Shown: positions 1,365 through 20,114 of the stretch, piece by piece
How positions within the stretch are numbered: the stretch's first letter is position 1
Layout of the letters: every line of letters starts with the position of its first letter
Source of the DNA: a virus
DNA length: 20,114 nt
IMG/VR virus record: IMGVR_UViG_3300006802_000803
Span: 1 to 20,114 of that record
Reading direction: 5' to 3' (one strand)
Program-made: the position numbers and the translations under genes
The notes under the pieces: generated by a model
Seen by the model: the letters and a program-made list of their open reading frames with translations, nothing else
The model's database searches: none
Told to the model about the DNA's origin: nothing

Positions 1365-2868
1365 AGCAGAGTGCTTAATTGATGAAGCAGGACTTTGTAT
1401 TCCAGGAGTCATAATTACAGAAGATACACAAGTTGACATTACTGAAGAAGACAAAGGCACTGAAATAATTACAACTACCACAACGACTGTTACTACTAAC
1501 ACTACCACAATTACCAACGAAGACTCAGGAGACATTTTAGATGGCACCAATGGTTATGTAAATTCTTCAAAAGAGGGTGATATGGATATTGATTGGGGTG
1601 GTCAAGGAGGTGCAAGTATGCCAACAGGTAATGCTTGTTATGGATTAGGTTCAGATAAATGTGCACAGATTACAGGCAGTGGTAATTCCACATCTACTAT
1701 GGGAGTTGATGGTATGGGTACAACATTTATTAATACGATTGACATATCTGATTTAAATATACAAAAAGGTGGAGAAGTCAAATATACAATTGAAGTAGAT
1801 AAACAAGATGCTCAAGATAGAATATACATGCACATTACAGGACTTAATGGAACTAGCCAGGTCTTTTCAGGCACTGACATCTTGTCTGAATCTGGAGTAT
1901 CAACCGGATACCAGTCTTATAATGGGTCTTTCGATTTTGCTGGTGTATTAAATAAAGTCGTAATTGAAGTAGGCGGAAGAGATATTAATCTTGCTGTAGG
2001 TCCTTTGTTTGATGACGTTAGTGTCAATGTTTTTTACAACGTAATTAATACTATTATTACACAACAAATTACTACCTTAGAAGAAATATATTATTTAGAT
2101 CTATTTGATCCTACTGAACTAGATTTTGTAGAAGAGGTGTTTGAATATAATGATATTAGTTTTGATGAAGGTGATATTGATTTTACACCTATTGAACCTG
2201 AAACTGAAGAGGTAAGTTTTGAGTCTGTTGAATTAGAATTAGAACTAGAAATGAATTTTGATATGGAGTTTGAAGCACCATCAATGGAAATGTTATCATC
2301 CTCAGACATGGAAATGGATATACCTGTAAATGTAGAAACTGTTGAAGCAGAGATACAGATGGAACTAGAAGAACTACCAGAGCCTGAGATGATGGCTTCT
2401 GTAGAAGATATGCCAGAACCAGAGATCACGGATCCCGAACCAGAACCTGAGACAGTAGAACCTGAACCTGAACCTGAACAAGAGACTACCGAAGAATCTC
2501 AAGAAGAACCACAGGAAGCAGAACAAAAAGAACCGCAACCAGAAGAAAAAGAAAAAGATCCAGAAGAAAAGCCAAAAGAAGAGAAATCATCTAAACCAAA
2601 GGTATCAAAGAAAGAGAAAGCTGCCACCAAAATCGTCAAGAAAATTGATGATAAAGCAAGATATGATGACGCTGCTCAAATGAAAACATTGATAGTTATG
2701 CAAATACTTGGTAATACAAAATCATTCTTTGACTCACAAGCTACAATAGTAGATACAAATGTTAACGAATATTTAAACAAGACAATAGAAGATCAATATG
2801 GTATTCTATTTGATATAGCTCAACAACAAACAATAGATGATATGGTAAACGCACAATGGCAGAAGTAA
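1300..2868 (+). CDS. Large exported acidic, Glu/Pro-rich protein of unknown function
   Basis: 522 residues. It starts with a signal peptide (hydrophobic core RLCSLLLLVSS, likely cleavage after SKA at residue 23). Then come a Thr-rich tract (about 56-72), a globular-looking part rich in Gly, Ser and beta-type residues (about 85-250), a very acidic segment (about 255-370), Glu/Pro repeats of the EPEPEP kind (about 370-430), a Lys-rich stretch (about 420-450) and a helical C-terminus. The ATG at 1300 has GGAG 9 bases upstream. The first 65 bases overlap the previous gene in another frame, so the signal peptide is dual-coded. The opposite-strand open frame over 2091-2429 follows from the low-complexity repeats and is not a gene. 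The role could be a surface or periplasmic spacer or a virion fibre-like protein; I do not recognise the family. Confidence 0.75.
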   Translation: MQDILHFIRLCSLLLLVSSYSKAECLIDEAGLCIPGVIITEDTQVDITEEDKGTEIITTTTTTVTTNTTTITNEDSGDILDGTNGYVNSSKEGDMDIDWGGQGGASMPTGNACYGLGSDKCAQITGSGNSTSTMGVDGMGTTFINTIDISDLNIQKGGEVKYTIEVDKQDAQDRIYMHITGLNGTSQVFSGTDILSESGVSTGYQSYNGSFDFAGVLNKVVIEVGGRDINLAVGPLFDDVSVNVFYNVINTIITQQITTLEEIYYLDLFDPTELDFVEEVFEYNDISFDEGDIDFTPIEPETEEVSFESVELELELEMNFDMEFEAPSMEMLSSSDMEMDIPVNVETVEAEIQMELEELPEPEMMASVEDMPEPEITDPEPEPETVEPEPEPEQETTEESQEEPQEAEQKEPQPEEKEKDPEEKPKEEKSSKPKVSKKEKAATKIVKKIDDKARYDDAAQMKTLIVMQILGNTKSFFDSQATIVDTNVNEYLNKTIEDQYGILFDIAQQQTIDDMVNAQWQK

Positions 2869-3368
2869 GTATAGGCGGAATCTCCTTTAAGGGAGGAAAG
2901 ATGATGGCAATTATCCTTGCACTTAGTAGTGCCGTGGGTGCTTTATATGGCGGATTTGAGATGTATAAACGCTTTCAAGATATGTCTGCAGCTATTGAGG
3001 CTTATCAGGAGCCTGACCTCAGCGGATTTGATAAGAAGATTGCACTTGTGGAAAGTGAAACTCAAGCACAAGTAGAACTTGTATCACAACAATTAGACGC
3101 TTTAAAAAGTGAATTAGAAATTATATTAGGTGAAATAGATTTAATAAGTCAAGTTAGTCGTGAACTTAAAGATGATCTAAAAACTGATTTACGCTCTGTC
3201 GAAGGGGACGTTCGTCACATTACTGAAATAGTGAATGACGTGGAAGATAGACAGAAAGAAGATTCTAGAGAACTGATAGATGAAATGAAATTGTTAGAAG
3301 AAAGTCTTGATCTAAAAATAGATAAAGCTTTAAACAACCCTCTATCAGGTATGAGTGCCAAAAACTAA
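2856..3368 (+). CDS. Membrane-anchored coiled-coil protein of unknown function
   Basis: 170 residues. The start ATG (2856) overlaps the end of the preceding gene by 13 bases. After a short Gly-rich N-terminus there is one hydrophobic segment (about residues 15-35, MMAIILALSSAVGALYGGF), followed by a long charged helical region with heptad spacing from about 58 to 165, compatible with an extended coiled coil. The topology resembles the smaller protein at 104-331, so both may act at the inner membrane. Its last 24 bases overlap the 3' end of the convergent gene on the minus strand. No enzymatic motif is visible. Confidence 0.65.
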   Translation: MAEVSIGGISFKGGKMMAIILALSSAVGALYGGFEMYKRFQDMSAAIEAYQEPDLSGFDKKIALVESETQAQVELVSQQLDALKSELEIILGEIDLISQVSRELKDDLKTDLRSVEGDVRHITEIVNDVEDRQKEDSRELIDEMKLLEESLDLKIDKALNNPLSGMSAKN

Positions 3369-4118
3369 ATCAAAATATTTTTGTTGATTATCATTTAGAT
3401 CGGCTAGATCTTTAATATTACTATCATTTTTACAAAGTTGATTGTATATCTTTTTATCTTTACACCAATCTCTACCTGTCCAAAACTCAAAGCCATCGTA
3501 TTTTGACTTGTATATACTACTATTTTCATAGCTATAAGAAAAATAATAATACTTGTAGTTCCAATCCATACAGTATTTTATTTCATATAAACTAGCATAA
3601 GTTCCCAAGCCTAGCTTTTCGTTTTCATAGTCCCAAGCAAATTGACCTGTCATAAAGTGATCATCAACCAGCATAGCTTCTGTAAAAGCTATAGGTCTTT
3701 CTTTGTAATAATATACAAAATATTTCCAATCAATAGGATCATCACGCATGAACTCTTCGCTTTCTTTTTCATTGTTTACTTCGTAGTAATTTTTATGTTG
3801 TATATATTTTTTGTATATATGAGCTATGTCATCTTCTAAGTGCCAGGGTAGTTTATCATAAGTATGTACATATATATCTTTTTTGTTAAGGGTATACTTT
3901 TGTTTTTTTGAAAATGTAAATTCTGATAGCTGCAGTCTACTAGATCTAGCATTAATCCAAGTAAGGTGATTTATTTTGGTATAGTACCAAGATAAAGGTA
4001 ACCAGCCGTTATTGAATGCATAGTCATATTCACTTTCCTCAAACTCTGCTAAGGGAAGACTATATAATAGATCGTAGTTTGTTAACTTACCTGTAATATG
4101 ATCAAAAAATATTTTCAC
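3345..4118 (-). CDS. ATE-like acyltransferase (arginyl-tRNA-protein transferase family, GNAT fold)
   Basis: 257 residues, GTG start overlapping the upstream stop (GTGA). The C-terminal half follows the pattern of arginyltransferases, which move Arg from charged tRNA to protein N-termini: GLGTYASLYEI (170-180) and then YYFSYSYENSSIYKSKYDGF (191-210) correspond to the family's SLG-Y--L-EI and YYLGY-I---MYK-KF-P-E blocks. The first half also parallels ATE: NNGWLPLSWYY, then ARSSRLQLSEFTFS and NKKDIYV resemble its R--V--F--S--QR----N-DL segment. The N-terminal Cys pairs of cellular ATE are absent. Family membership is my reading of the motifs; substrate and tRNA use are unknown. It is the last gene of a three-gene minus-strand operon headed by an SNF2-type ATPase. 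Its 3' end overlaps the convergent gene by 24 bases. Confidence 0.65.
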   Translation of the reverse strand: MKIFFDHITGKLTNYDLLYSLPLAEFEESEYDYAFNNGWLPLSWYYTKINHLTWINARSSRLQLSEFTFSKKQKYTLNKKDIYVHTYDKLPWHLEDDIAHIYKKYIQHKNYYEVNNEKESEEFMRDDPIDWKYFVYYYKERPIAFTEAMLVDDHFMTGQFAWDYENEKLGLGTYASLYEIKYCMDWNYKYYYFSYSYENSSIYKSKYDGFEFWTGRDWCKDKKIYNQLCKNDSNIKDLADLNDNQQKYFDLVFGTHT

Positions 4119-6293: not shown

Positions 6294-6626
6294 ATGACAG
6301 TTTACGTAATACAAGAAATGCCTTACAAAGATATCCTCAGTGCTGAGGAGTATGGCAAATTAATTTCTCTCATACCACCTGGCTTTCAATTATTATTGAG
6401 CTCTGATTCTATTGTGGACCAATTAAAAAAAGGTCTTAAAGATTTTTCAGATGAAGATTATTTATTGTTAATTGGTGATCCCTCAATTATTGGTATTGCA
6501 TGTTCAATCGCATCTGATATAAATATGGGATATTATAAAGTTCTTAAATGGGACAGGAAACGTGAAAAGTATCATCCCATTGAAGTAAATATAAGGAGAA
6601 ATGAGAATGACGAAAATAAACTTTGA
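6294..6626 (+). CDS. Small protein of unknown function, first gene of replication operon
   Basis: 110 residues, soluble, beginning MTVYVIQEMPYKDILSAEEY and ending in a Lys/Glu/Asn-rich tail. A hydrophobic core (DYLLLIGDPSIIGIACSIAS, about 61-80) and GYYKVLKWDRKREKY (about 84-98) suggest a compact alpha/beta fold. I recall this type as a conserved hypothetical in marine phages but not a function. No clear Shine-Dalgarno precedes ATG 6294, and the predicted transcript start is about 10 bases upstream; an alternative start is ATG 6318. The 3' end overlaps the next gene by 20 bases, so it belongs to the replication operon. Confidence 0.7.
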   Translation: MTVYVIQEMPYKDILSAEEYGKLISLIPPGFQLLLSSDSIVDQLKKGLKDFSDEDYLLLIGDPSIIGIACSIASDINMGYYKVLKWDRKREKYHPIEVNIRRNENDENKL

Positions 6627-7161
6627 AGACGATGTCTTTTCAGATGTCGATGACACCTCACTAAAAGCACTTGCTGATAAATGTAAACAACTTGAGTTTG
6701 CAGAAAAAGAAGTTGCTGAACTTGAAGATTCATTAAAAGAAAAAAAAGAAGCTGCAAGAAAATTATCTGAAGAGGATATACCTCTATTCTTAGCTGAAAA
6801 AGGTTTGTCTAGTATTACACTAGATAACGGTACTGAAGTAAAAATTTCAGAAGAGATACGACCTGGTGTAAAGGTTGCTGATAAGCCGTATGTATATTCT
6901 TGGCTCAGGGACAACGGATATGGTGACATAATTAAAAACAATGTCTCAGTATCTTTTGGTATGGGCGAAGACTCACAGGCACTTAAATTAAAAACAGCTA
7001 TACAAGATTTAGGAATGACAGGCACAGAAAAAGAAGATGTGCACTATCAAACTATGAAAGCATTCGTAACTGAGCAACACAAAAAGGGCGTGTCTTTGCC
7101 AGACGAATTTGGTGTGTACGTAGCCAATAAAACAAAACTCGTACAGAAACGAAAAATATAA
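6607..7161 (+). CDS. Coiled-coil protein of the replication operon, function unknown
   Basis: 184 residues. ATG 6607 is preferred over ATG 6601 because AAGGAG (6593-6598) is then 8 bases away instead of 2. Residues about 15-60 form a charged helix with heptad character (EFAEKEVAELEDSLKEKKE), followed by a mixed alpha/beta domain containing TLDNGTEVKI, SWLRDNGYGDIIK and a basic tail NKTKLVQKRKI. This could be an accessory protein of the ssDNA-binding candidate encoded next (20-base gap), but no motif supports a specific activity. A run of eight A around 6740 lies inside the frame without disrupting it. Confidence 0.7.
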   Translation: MTKINFEDDVFSDVDDTSLKALADKCKQLEFAEKEVAELEDSLKEKKEAARKLSEEDIPLFLAEKGLSSITLDNGTEVKISEEIRPGVKVADKPYVYSWLRDNGYGDIIKNNVSVSFGMGEDSQALKLKTAIQDLGMTGTEKEDVHYQTMKAFVTEQHKKGVSLPDEFGVYVANKTKLVQKRKI

Positions 7162-7181
7162 TCGAAAATAAGGAGCAACGA

Positions 7182-7979
7182 ATGACGCAAAACGCACAAA
7201 CGAAACCTCAGCAACAAGAAGTTGTTGAGAAGAAAAACACGGCTGTTGTAGATTTAGGATCTTTTGAGGCAGATGCCTCTTTAGGTCTTCAAGACTTACA
7301 ACAAGACGATCTAGCAACACCAAGGATAAAAATTCTTATGAATGGTTCTGATGAATTAGAGGCAGATGAAAACCTCAAGATGGGACAGATTTATAACAAT
7401 GTCACTGGTGAAGCTTATGACGGTAAAGAAGGTATTATAGTTATACCATGTGCTTATGAAAGACAGTACGCAGAATGGACTACAACAAGAGGTAAAGGTA
7501 ATCCTCCTGTAAATACTTACAAAGCTGATAGCGATATCTTAACCAAGACAAATAGAAGTAAAGAGGACAATAAAGATTACTTAGACAACGGTAATTATAT
7601 TGAGACAAATGCAAATCATTTTGTCATTGTATATGATTCAAAGACAGGCGTTGGCACTCCTGCTTTAATCACAATGAAGTCTACACAATTAAAGAAGAGT
7701 AGAAAATGGAACAGCATGATGTTGAACATAAGAATACCAGGATCTAAAGGTCCTTTTAATCCTCCTTCTTTTAGTCATATGTATAAACTTAAAGTAAAAA
7801 AGGAAGACAATGACAAAGGTAAATGGTTTGGTTGGGATATTGAATTAGTAGGTCCTATTACAAATATGGAGATATATAATCAAGCTAAACTATTTCACTC
7901 CAGTATAAAGTCGGGTGAGGTACAAGCTAAACCAGAACAAGATCAAGAATCATCTGGTACAACACAAACACCATTCTAA
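7182..7979 (+). CDS. Putative ssDNA-binding/recombination accessory protein
   Basis: 265 residues. AAGGAG lies 6 bases before the ATG. The N-terminus is Gln/Lys-rich and probably disordered. The central part (about 40-240) has TPRIKILMNGSDEL, IIVIPCAYERQYAEW, ALITMKSTQLKKSRKWNSMM and KLKVKKEDNDKGKWFGWDIE, an arrangement I associate with a family of phage replication-operon proteins often annotated as DNA-binding or SSB-like. The C-terminus is flexible and ends TTQTPF, reminiscent of the DxPF tip by which bacterial SSB recruits partners. The evidence is position (just upstream of primase, helicase and polymerase) plus this weak resemblance; a structure-based search could overturn it. An intrinsic terminator follows. 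Confidence 0.5.
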   Translation: MTQNAQTKPQQQEVVEKKNTAVVDLGSFEADASLGLQDLQQDDLATPRIKILMNGSDELEADENLKMGQIYNNVTGEAYDGKEGIIVIPCAYERQYAEWTTTRGKGNPPVNTYKADSDILTKTNRSKEDNKDYLDNGNYIETNANHFVIVYDSKTGVGTPALITMKSTQLKKSRKWNSMMLNIRIPGSKGPFNPPSFSHMYKLKVKKEDNDKGKWFGWDIELVGPITNMEIYNQAKLFHSSIKSGEVQAKPEQDQESSGTTQTPF

Positions 7980-17711: not shown

Positions 17712-18066
17712 AGGTGCAATTAATCCTGGAACTGGTTTGCATGAACAACCAATATGGAAAATTGAAATGCAAGATGACGAGGAAAGATTGTTAGGTAAAC
17801 ATAAAATGGAAGAGTATATTTCAAAATCTTATGGCAAAGCTATTCATAGATTTAAAAGATGGAAAGTTATGACAAAGACAAGTGAGACTCAAGTTTATGT
17901 TGTAGTCTTTTCAGACAGAACACATGAAATGCTTTCTCCAAATCAAATGATGGATAAGATATATGAAGGTCATCAAGTTAGAAAAGACCCTAAGTTAGAT
18001 TATATCGAATCTGAGTTAGCAGCTAAAGGTGGACATAGTCCAATTTTTATACCAGATGAAACTTAA
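17674..18066 (+). CDS. Protein of unknown function before the methyltransferase
   Basis: 130 residues, soluble, mixed alpha/beta. Recognisable stretches are MSKIIVGLQQIDEGAINPGT, SYGKAIHRFKRWKVMTKTSE and TQVYVVVFSDRTHEML. The AAAGGAGG at about 17648-17655 is 18 bases before the ATG, so initiation probably depends on the overlapping upstream gene. Its last 11 bases overlap the methyltransferase start. No known motif is seen. Confidence 0.6.
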   Translation: MSKIIVGLQQIDEGAINPGTGLHEQPIWKIEMQDDEERLLGKHKMEEYISKSYGKAIHRFKRWKVMTKTSETQVYVVVFSDRTHEMLSPNQMMDKIYEGHQVRKDPKLDYIESELAAKGGHSPIFIPDET

Positions 18067-19132
18067 ACACTTAGATTTGTTTTCAGGTATAGGTGGATTT
18101 AGTCTAGGATTAGAAGCTACAGGACATTTTGATACCATAGCATTTTGTGATTACGAACCTTATTGTCAAAAAGTTTTACGCAAACATTGGCCGTGGGTTA
18201 CAATTTATGACGATGTAAAGGAGTTAAACAGTGAAAGATTATCATCAAACGGACATACTAAAATCGACATCATTACAGGAGGATATCCCTGTCAACCATT
18301 CAGCATCGCTGGACGTCAAAAAGGTGAGCAAGATCCGAGACACGTCTGGCCAGAAATGTTTAGACTTGTCAAAGAACTCAGGCCGACTTGGGTTATTGGA
18401 GAGAACGTTAGTGGACACATTAAACTCGGTCTCGACACCGTACTTGAGAACTTGGAGAGTGAAGGTTACTTCGCAAGAGCGTTTAGTATTTCAGCTTCGA
18501 GCGTCGGTGCAGTCCACCAAAGAGAAAGAGTCTGGATTGTGGGCTACTCCGAACACAATGGATCATCTACCACAGAGAAGTCCCGAGTCAGTGAAAAAAC
18601 AGATGACAACAGCAAGGAAGGGCAGAACAAGACCATCCAATTTGAGAGAACAGGTGGATCCCACAATAGTGAAGATGTGGAGAACACCCGATGCTCACAG
18701 TGGCCGTGGTCCTTCTTCGGAAACCAGGATGAAGATGAAACTAGAGAAGGGGATGCCTATCAGTTTGAACGATCAGGTAGCACATCCAAGATTGATGTGG
18801 CCGACACCGAGGGCGTCAGCAGCTATGGCAGAGAAGACAGAGAACATACAGAACAGAGGGACGCAGAGAGGCAAGTTGGAGGAGAAAGTGGCAATGATGC
18901 CCACACCGACATCGAGGGATTGGAAGGACGCTGGTCCCAATGTGAATTACGAGAAAGCCAAGAAGAAGGGCAGATTGGCTGGTCACAGTGGTGGCAGTCT
19001 GAACCCAACGTGGGTAGAGTGGCTCATGGGGTACCCAAAAGGGTGGACAGACTTAAATCACTAGGCAATAGTTTAGTTCCAATGATACCGTATTATATTG
19101 GAATGAGTATTAAGAAAGGAGATATGTTATGA
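18056..19132 (+). CDS. dcm: DNA cytosine-5 methyltransferase
   Basis: 358 residues. Motif I DLFSGIGGFSLGLE (7-20) binds AdoMet, motif IV GGYPCQPFS (75-83) carries the catalytic Cys79, motif VI ENV (116-118), motif VIII QRERVWIV (155-162), and motifs IX-X RVDRLKSLGNSLVP close the fold. Start ATG 18056 is chosen from the family's usual MKxLDLFSG beginning; an in-frame GTG at 18029 is possible. Between motifs VIII and IX (about 165-320) the chain is unusually polar and low in hydrophobics, with repeated D/E-T-E-G-like steps. This coincides with a second long ORF in the +1 frame over 18231-19064. The region is also distinctly GC-richer than flanking genes. Phage C5 methyltransferases commonly protect DNA from restriction; the recognition sequence cannot be read here. 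Confidence 0.93.
   Translation: MKLKHLDLFSGIGGFSLGLEATGHFDTIAFCDYEPYCQKVLRKHWPWVTIYDDVKELNSERLSSNGHTKIDIITGGYPCQPFSIAGRQKGEQDPRHVWPEMFRLVKELRPTWVIGENVSGHIKLGLDTVLENLESEGYFARAFSISASSVGAVHQRERVWIVGYSEHNGSSTTEKSRVSEKTDDNSKEGQNKTIQFERTGGSHNSEDVENTRCSQWPWSFFGNQDEDETREGDAYQFERSGSTSKIDVADTEGVSSYGREDREHTEQRDAERQVGGESGNDAHTDIEGLEGRWSQCELRESQEEGQIGWSQWWQSEPNVGRVAHGVPKRVDRLKSLGNSLVPMIPYYIGMSIKKGDML
18231..19064 (+). CDS. Overlapping +1-frame protein inside the methyltransferase gene (WxTP-repeat family)
   Basis: 277 residues, entirely inside the methyltransferase gene in the +1 frame. It starts with GTG 18231 preceded by AAAGGAG (18217-18223) at 7 bases, a textbook site with no purpose for the outer gene, and ends with TAG 19064. 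Features: TSGQKCLDLSKN (39-50), TWRVKVTSQERLVFQL (74-89), then four WxTP-type repeats at WATPNTMD (104), WRTPDAHS (150), WPTPRASA (190) and MPTPTSRD (223), and a C-terminal LNPTWVEWLMGYPKGWTDL (257-275). From memory the same repeat and WVEWLMGxPxGWT ending occur in phage and bacterial proteins near cytosine methyltransferases. No function is known to me. The start site, length and motif quality argue for a real dual-coded gene; a conserved shadow of the methyltransferase is the alternative. Confidence 0.65.
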   Translation: MKDYHQTDILKSTSLQEDIPVNHSASLDVKKVSKIRDTSGQKCLDLSKNSGRLGLLERTLVDTLNSVSTPYLRTWRVKVTSQERLVFQLRASVQSTKEKESGLWATPNTMDHLPQRSPESVKKQMTTARKGRTRPSNLREQVDPTIVKMWRTPDAHSGRGPSSETRMKMKLEKGMPISLNDQVAHPRLMWPTPRASAAMAEKTENIQNRGTQRGKLEEKVAMMPTPTSRDWKDAGPNVNYEKAKKKGRLAGHSGGSLNPTWVEWLMGYPKGWTDLNH

Positions 19133-19302
19133 ACAAAATAGCATTGAACATAGTACGTCAACAGAGAGCATTGAAAGCAATGAGAGAGGCACAGTCACCT
19201 GTGTTTAAGCATTTTTGGTTTAATGTTTTTGGCAAGGTATGGTCAAATAGCCTCACACATAATGAGGATGGTGTGCCATATGACAACAAAACCAGAAACT
19301 AG
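19129..19302 (+). CDS. 57-residue protein of unknown function
   Basis: The frame runs from ATG 19129, overlapping the methyltransferase stop (ATGA), to TAG 19302. AAAGGAG lies 7-8 bases upstream. It starts MNKIALNIVRQQRALKAMRE, an amphipathic basic helix, then HFWFNVFGKVWSN. The 3' end overlaps the nuclease gene by 23 bases. No family is recognised. Confidence 0.5.
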   Translation: MNKIALNIVRQQRALKAMREAQSPVFKHFWFNVFGKVWSNSLTHNEDGVPYDNKTRN

Positions 19303-19717
19303 ATTTTGGAAAAAACTGAAAGAATTGACTCCGAACGTACATTGGACAAGGATTGAATCCTTTAGTTCACCTGGGATACCTGATTTGCACGGTGTTTATC
19401 GTGGCGAAGACGGGTATCCTGTTAGTGTTTTTGTTGAATTGAAATGTACTAAGCTGAAAAAAGTGGCATTGACGCCTAAGCAAATTTCGTGGAATTACAG
19501 CTATTATGAAGCTGGAGGGTTAAATTTTATTATGGTCGAGACCCTCCCTAATAGAGCCTTGTATATATATTCGGGAGGCATGGCCCGTGAACTCTCCATT
19601 GCGGGCATAGAAACGGAGCCATTGGCCATTATCCCCTATCCGTGGTCCGGGCAGGAGCTGCTGCTGACGATGGAACGCTTTCTCCATTACCGTGAATCTT
19701 GCGACTCGGCTACCTAA
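19280..19717 (+). CDS. PD-(D/E)XK nuclease (VRR-NUC/resolvase-like)
   Basis: 145 residues from ATG 19280; in-frame ATGs at 19262 and 19268 are alternatives, and none has a strong ribosome binding site. The nuclease core is visible: SFSSPGIPDLHGVYRG with Pro34-Asp35, then VFVELKCTKLKKVALTPKQ with Glu53-x-Lys55, and ISWNYSYYEAGGLNFIMVE, the usual helix-strand after the active site of VRR-NUC-type enzymes. It is the second PD-(D/E)XK protein of the window and may cut branched DNA or assist packaging, given the terminase gene upstream. Its last 140 bases become GC-richer and contain the first two TCTCCATT repeats, translated as RELSIAG and RFLHYRE. Confidence 0.8.
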   Translation: MTTKPETRFWKKLKELTPNVHWTRIESFSSPGIPDLHGVYRGEDGYPVSVFVELKCTKLKKVALTPKQISWNYSYYEAGGLNFIMVETLPNRALYIYSGGMARELSIAGIETEPLAIIPYPWSGQELLLTMERFLHYRESCDSAT

Positions 19718-19753
19718 TCTATGCCATGAGCTGCATCCTGGTAACCAGATGGG

Positions 19754-19780
19754 TTGACAGCTGCACAAAGATCCTATAAT
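19754..19780 (+). promoter_or_regulatory. Near-consensus sigma70-like promoter
   Basis: TTGACA (19754-19759) and TATAAT (19775-19780) both match consensus exactly, but the spacer is 15 bases rather than 16-18. The expected start lies about 3 bases before ATG 19789 or would drive an RNA through the repeat array to the right edge. Confidence 0.5.
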
Positions 19781-19788
19781 ATTGGGAC

Positions 19789-19917
19789 ATGATTAGTTTA
19801 TTTCTCCATTGGCTACTGGGCACGAGCTTCATCGCCATAGTTCTATTGTTGCGGTTTCCCCGACTCAGGAGACCAGTAGCGTGGATCGTGGTTCTGACAA
19901 TTCTCCATTACGCTTAA
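19789..19917 (+). CDS. 42-residue possible two-span membrane peptide
   Basis: The frame runs from ATG 19789 to TAA 19917. Two hydrophobic segments (SLFLHWLLGTSFIAIVLLL and VAWIVVLTILHYA) flank a basic turn (RFPRLRRP). GGGA lies 3-4 bases before the ATG, and a consensus-like promoter lies just upstream. However, it contains two copies of the TCTCCATT repeat, both read as xLH[Y/W], so the hydrophobic pattern could partly come from the repeat rather than from selection on a protein. Confidence 0.35.
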   Translation: MISLFLHWLLGTSFIAIVLLLRFPRLRRPVAWIVVLTILHYA

Positions 19918-19966
19918 ATCAACTTTTGCCTACCAACATAGGCCAGGTCAGCTGCTGTCCCAGGCA

Positions 19967-19989
19967 GGAGAATCCTGTGACGATTCTCC
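19967..19989 (+). other. Hairpin within the right-end repeat array
   Basis: GGAGAAT (19967-19973) and ATTCTCC (19983-19989) are perfect inverted repeats with a 9-base loop. The 3' arm is the start of a TCTCCATT copy and the 5' arm contains the paired CAGGAG element. No T tract follows, so it is not an intrinsic terminator. The region 19918-20114 otherwise holds no gene I can support. Confidence 0.55.
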
Positions 19990-20114
19990 ATTGCAGGTGT
20001 GCCACGAATCTTTGCCCTCTCTACTATAACAAAATCCGGCTCAGCTCAGGAGTTGCTGTGAAATCTCCATCAGGCGTGACTCACGACCCGTTGCCCTTAG
20101 GTATATATAAAAAG

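Follow-up and report, generated by a model that had tools for sequence, protein, structure and literature searches.

A +1 reading frame nested in a phage C5-cytosine methyltransferase gene and its likely role as a recognition subunit

Split methyltransferases and the layout of the locus

The closest described systems are C5-cytosine DNA methyltransferases whose conserved motifs are divided between two polypeptides. In M.EcoHK31I (YGGCCR), the large subunit carries motifs I-VIII and X, motif IX being left to the small one (PMC3404938, which cites Lee, Kam and Shaw 1995, PMC306636), and the predicted recognition domain has been placed in the large subunit (PMC3404938). M.EcoHK31I needs both polypeptides, and its large-subunit gene contains the small-subunit gene in a different frame. 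In M.AquI (CYCGRG), the catalytic motifs are on one polypeptide and the distal recognition region and motif IX are on another (PMC3404938). We found no description of a nested or overlapping class of cytosine methyltransferases in phages in the open-licence literature that we searched. The same nested pair as the one reported here does occur in Paenibacillus larvae phages, for example as BLOOM_56/BLOOM_57, where both members are annotated 'DNA cytosine methyltransferase' (PMC6070908); the passages found in that paper list the genes and do not take up an overlap or a subunit relation.

The window analysed here is a virus contig of 20,114 bases, read on one strand and numbered from its first base; all features of the pair are on the plus strand. 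The outer gene, alpha, extends from an ATG at 18056 to 19132 (1077 nucleotides), with an alternative, longer GTG start at 18029. Entirely inside it is a second open reading frame, beta, which runs without a stop for 277 codons from a GTG at 18231 to its stop codon at 19064, in the +1 frame relative to alpha, and covers 834 of the 1077 alpha nucleotides. A Shine-Dalgarno sequence, AAAGGAG, lies 7 nucleotides before the GTG (18217..18223). The first-pass annotation had claimed both the complete nesting and this ribosome-binding site, and both claims held. It had also claimed four spaced WxTP repeats, which is partly correct: three are WxTP (W104, W150 and W190), in WATPNTMD (18540..18563), WRTPDAHS (18678..18701) and WPTPRASA (18798..18821), while the fourth, MPTPTSRD (18897..18920), reads MPTP at residues 223-226. 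The clean carboxy-terminal WVEWLMGYPKGWTDL motif that it reported is present. Base composition changes over the overlap (18200-19200), where GC content rises to 45-52% and AT skew to 0.37, compared with 32-40% GC in the flanks, as expected under double coding.

Selection on both reading frames

By every available sequence test beta is a real gene, and selection acts on both frames. When the codons of the window's gene were shuffled synonymously 20,000 times, the longest +1 run had a median of 119 codons and a maximum of 231, compared with 278 observed; the same shuffles introduced a mean of 9.1 stops within the beta span, and none was free of stops. Across related genes, alpha codons were exchanged between positions that encode an identical residue, and beta profiles were used to score the +1 translation; these profiles had been built, for each gene, only from relatives with less than 42% alpha identity. 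The half of beta that contains the repeats and motif IX scored 123 bits in the real sequences versus 7.5 in the shuffled ones, with 44 of 44 genes above all of their shuffles, and the amino-terminal half scored 112 bits versus 69 (38 of 43 genes above all shuffles). An upstream control region that is not overlapped showed no excess over shuffles (1 of 37 genes). Frame +2 over the same DNA also exceeded its shuffles, more weakly (50 bits versus -0.6); this would be expected as a side effect of DNA conserved for frame +1, an expectation that we have not modeled. An alternative division into training and test genes at 50% identity gave no amino-terminal signal, with only six outlier genes in the test set.

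The distribution of substitutions was analysed in 79 independent pairs as differences per site at alpha codon positions 1, 2 and 3. The values are.073/.045/.247 upstream of the overlap,.065/.027/.113 in its first (amino-terminal) half,.214/.102/.100 in its second (carboxy-terminal) half, and.075/.055/.256 in the tail after the overlap. Since alpha position 1 is beta position 3 in a +1 overlap, it is the beta frame that is protected in the recognition region, and both frames that are protected in the catalytic region. The conservation of beta holds even where alpha is least conserved. Synonymous shuffling of beta, in turn, would be expected to create 5.8 alpha-frame stops per gene, yet none was observed in 144 genes, which argues that both frames are maintained.

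Beta also has its own start signals. The first in-frame beta start codon is preceded by a Shine-Dalgarno core of 5-6 nucleotides in 91 of 143 loci (64%), as against 5% of internal start codons; it lies a median of one codon past the last stop, which for its part tends to fall 16-19 codons ahead of motif IV. A chance or codon-bias origin of the inner frame was considered and is ruled out by the shuffles, the substitution positions and the start-site enrichment. Stops or a missing ribosome-binding site in the inner frame of related methyltransferases, or purifying selection confined to the outer frame, would have refuted the first-pass reading, and none of these was met: relatives keep the inner frame open and equipped with a ribosome-binding site, and selection is seen on both frames. 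The further suggestion that the outer frame is the more permissive of the two between motifs VIII and IX fits the substitutions, which spare the inner frame there, and the coil that AF2 predicts for alpha.

Inferred division of labour between the two chains

Alpha matches PF00145 at 8.4e-42 (Pfam) and TIGR00675 at 2.7e-34, and it meets membership in the PF00145 C5 methyltransferases through motifs I, IV (PCQ), VI (ENV), VIII and X. Motif IV, PCQP, with the catalytic cysteine, is encoded at 18287..18298, and motif X, LGNSLVP, which begins at the end of beta, at 19061..19081; invariant residues of the alpha alignment are P78 C79 Q80, E116 N117 V118, R156 R158, G337 N338 and P342. Membership among complete C5 methyltransferases is not met, since motif IX and a folded recognition domain are absent from the chain. 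The PF00145 match ends at residue 236, and phmmer aligns alpha with M.HhaI over residues 3-164 only. The AF2 model is confident over residues 1-167 and 343-357 (the motif X helix) and is coil over 170-327, at a pLDDT of about 28-50; the best Foldseek match of this model is M.HhaI (E 3.3e-14, 168 columns). Alpha thus resembles the monomeric enzymes M.HhaI and M.HaeIII in the fold of its catalytic domain and in motif order, but these are single chains with their own recognition domain and motif IX. Because the PF00145 match stops early and residues 170-327 are coil, we file alpha as a catalytic subunit and not as a complete monomeric enzyme. The predicted disorder of these residues (18563..19036), whose DNA also encodes the beta recognition region, together with the substitution pattern, suggests that in alpha they most likely form a permissive linker.

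Beta meets membership in PHROG_1008 by profile (9.4e-27, residues 13-196). This is the beta family, and its label, 'DNA methyltransferase', is silent on the nesting and on the missing catalytic domain. Searches of beta against Pfam and NCBIfam gave no match, nor did a sequence search against the PDB. The AF2 model of beta contains helices with pLDDT up to 95 over the DNA that encodes the alpha coil, and is weak overall (pTM 0.33). Given this weak model, and the lack of any Foldseek match to PDB structures, the fold of the recognition domain is not shown.

The carboxy terminus of beta, LNPTWVEWLMGYPKGWTDL (18999..19055), is motif IX, and its consensus, LNPxWVEWLMGxPxGWTDL, is near-invariant across 83 relatives. 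The identification comes from a plasmid relative (L307) in which a beta-type carboxy-terminal motif shares one frame with the catalytic domain and motif X, with PF00145 covering positions 3-322 of 324, and in which phmmer aligns this stretch with M.HhaI LHPRECARVMGYPDSY...FGNSVV, that is, with motifs IX and X. This second phmmer domain scores only 5.5 bits, so the identification also rests on position and order, on the MGYP core and on the motif X that follows. In an actinophage-like relative (L313), four LPTP-type repeats and motif IX are in frame within a single methyltransferase chain, and this one protein matches the alpha families phrog_363/116 as well as the beta family phrog_1008 (2.7e-45, residues 202-405). 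The in-frame modules of these two relatives suggest that beta is the counterpart of what, in a one-chain relative, forms the recognition region and motif IX. It is likely, on sequence and predicted structure and without activity data, that beta is the recognition domain plus motif IX. The first-pass claim that beta constrains the recognition region of the methyltransferase therefore held, and was exceeded.

We consider it very likely that alpha and the nested beta together make up a split C5-cytosine DNA methyltransferase of two subunits; no expression or activity data are available, and the heterodimer and its activity are inferred. One message would yield both chains, beta being translated from its own GTG and its own Shine-Dalgarno sequence. 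Alpha, with no folded recognition domain and no motif IX, would be responsible for AdoMet binding and catalysis through motifs I-VIII and X, and beta would provide the small domain, comprising the WxTP-repeat recognition region and motif IX, and would read the DNA. The amino-terminal domain of beta is overprinted on the DNA for the catalytic motifs and may serve to attach beta to alpha, a role that is again inferred. Methylation by the assembled enzyme would fall on the DNA of the phage itself and probably shield it from host restriction; this protective purpose is inferred from the absence of any recognised restriction endonuclease among those window ORFs that were scanned. The earlier proposal that both proteins are made, perhaps as partners, is supported, with translation and partnership still inferred from sequence.

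The window pair resembles M.EcoHK31I in splitting motifs I-VIII and X (alpha) from motif IX (beta) and in the nesting of the small-subunit gene. It differs in that constraint and structure prediction assign the recognition domain to the nested subunit, and in that the loci are mostly phage or prophage-like. With the recognition domain not in the large subunit, we regard the system, by analogy of layout alone, as working like M.EcoHK31I and do not file it as a member. As in M.AquI, the recognition region and motif IX are on a chain apart from the catalytic motifs; however, the small subunit of M.AquI also carries motif X, which here is in alpha, so that membership in the M.AquI type is not met.

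Distribution, natural variants and rival readings

Related loci were collected by beta protein, by alpha protein and by motif pattern. A beta-like ORF overlaps the methyltransferase in the +1 frame in 473 of the 505 loci scored (409 distinct DNA segments). Among the remaining loci, one has it in +2 (L083), five in the same ORF and four as a separate ORF, 17 are at a contig edge, and two have no methyltransferase nearby. In a set that takes in the loci retrieved with the alpha protein alone as query, 295 of 304 are +1 nested and the nine exceptions all trace to other searches, which indicates that the association is not produced by beta-based searching. The carriers are mostly phage or prophage-like, and the phyla of the genome loci include Bacillota, Bacteroidota, Pseudomonadota, Spirochaetota, Planctomycetota, Verrucomicrobiota, Nitrospirota, Synergistota and Actinomycetota. 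A tree built from 77 catalytic domains shows nesting to be an old, clustered state (4 label changes versus 14.7 in shuffles), and the window's alpha falls in an all-nested group of 38 rows with support 100/98. Two loci have unusual arrangements. In L054 (2119-2350), a second, shorter WPTP and motif IX cassette immediately follows the nested pair, and in L302 (2000-3400), a PAPS-reductase-like sequence takes the place of the catalytic half and the nested 3' half is kept; the latter may be either a recombination remnant or an assembly chimera.

Several relatives depart from the nested design. In L300 (regions at about 2806-3597 and 2076-2607), alpha is intact, the nested beta frame is interrupted by stops and its motif IX is ruined, and another copy of beta stands free downstream, adjoining alpha. 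The usual GRVAxGVPxRVDR stretch of alpha is changed to ARTAPEAPQRVNRI in this locus; its alteration where the nested beta has decayed suggests that the stretch is normally conserved for the sake of beta's motif IX. In L266 (2722-4060), alpha stops after motif VIII and the beta frame carries the repeats, IX and X, an arrangement split anew that is intermediate between the designs of EcoHK31I and AquI. In three further loci (L336, L361 and L381), the repeats, IX and X are located on a separate ORF downstream, and these loci, like L266, are closer to M.AquI. The Candidatus Megaera plasmid locus already mentioned (L307, 1942-2964) has motif IX in the alpha frame and LPTP repeats still in +1, and can be seen as a frame-swapped intermediate. 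Indels have shifted the module between frames in both L307 and L266. We had taken the actinophage relatives to be plain single chains, which is wrong for most of them, since a +1 LPTP ORF of about 140-310 codons is retained alongside a motif IX in alpha; the division of labour between the chains therefore varies.

Three other explanations of the inner frame can be considered. Beta could be a separate effector that is merely nested in an alpha complete by itself and that acts, for example, against restriction or in regulating the methyltransferase. The beta amino-terminal domain is indeed unknown among known C5 methyltransferases and has no Pfam match, and beta is free-standing at one locus (L300). 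However, neither motif IX nor a folded recognition domain is present in alpha, the carboxy terminus of beta is motif IX, the beta module is fused in frame to a catalytic domain in L313, and the free-standing beta still adjoins alpha, all of which makes an unrelated effector very unlikely.

We give similarly little credence to programmed ribosomal frameshifting from alpha into +1, by which a longer single chain would be made alongside free beta or in its place. The single-chain relatives that carry the module in frame, and the indels that have moved it between frames, speak for this possibility. Against it, beta has its own start and Shine-Dalgarno sequence at a fixed site, 16-19 codons before motif IV; the amino-terminal half, before the repeats, is under beta-frame constraint, whereas a shift of frame near motif VIII would not require any there; and the product would lack motif X. 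The third possibility, that the inner ORF is no gene and merely follows from codon usage and the conservation of alpha, is consistent with that conservation and with the completeness of the overlap, but it is refuted statistically and all but excluded: beta is conserved where alpha is least so, shuffling abolishes it, Shine-Dalgarno sequences are enriched, and a free-standing homologue exists.

The split-enzyme reading can be extended to a bolder one, towards which we lean only slightly: that this is a widespread phage and bacterial C5 class in which a whole recognition subunit is nested, the alpha stretch being a mere read-through linker, so that specificity evolves entirely in the other frame, and the module is a frame-hopping specificity cassette which, through indels, can become nested, fused or free-standing. 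What is new here is the breadth of the design, the evidence that beta and not alpha owns the recognition domain, and the existence of natural variants in which the module is un-nested, fused or split again. Strong evidence for long nested genes on the same strand is seldom available in bacteria and phages; here it comes from hundreds of loci, together with a function that fits the partner. Automatic pipelines frequently annotate just one member of the pair, with the result that such an enzyme is entered as a monomer, and any specificity deduced from its outer 'recognition domain' would use the wrong frame. The system is also suited to asking how two mutually binding proteins evolve from one stretch of DNA.

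The rest of the window contains genes for a DNA polymerase A, a UvrD-like helicase, a TOTE-type primase and a 2OG-Fe(II) oxygenase. Two genes at 6601-7979 match Pam3 phage gp33-like and gp34-like families, a hint of cyanophage-like relatives, and a phage gene on the minus strand (3345-4118) matches the arginine-tRNA-protein transferase carboxy-terminal domain (ATE_C, 9.6e-9), an unusual cargo. About five spaced copies or near-copies of TTCTCCATT, at about 50% GC, occur at 19590-19995, around and past the end of the last ORF.
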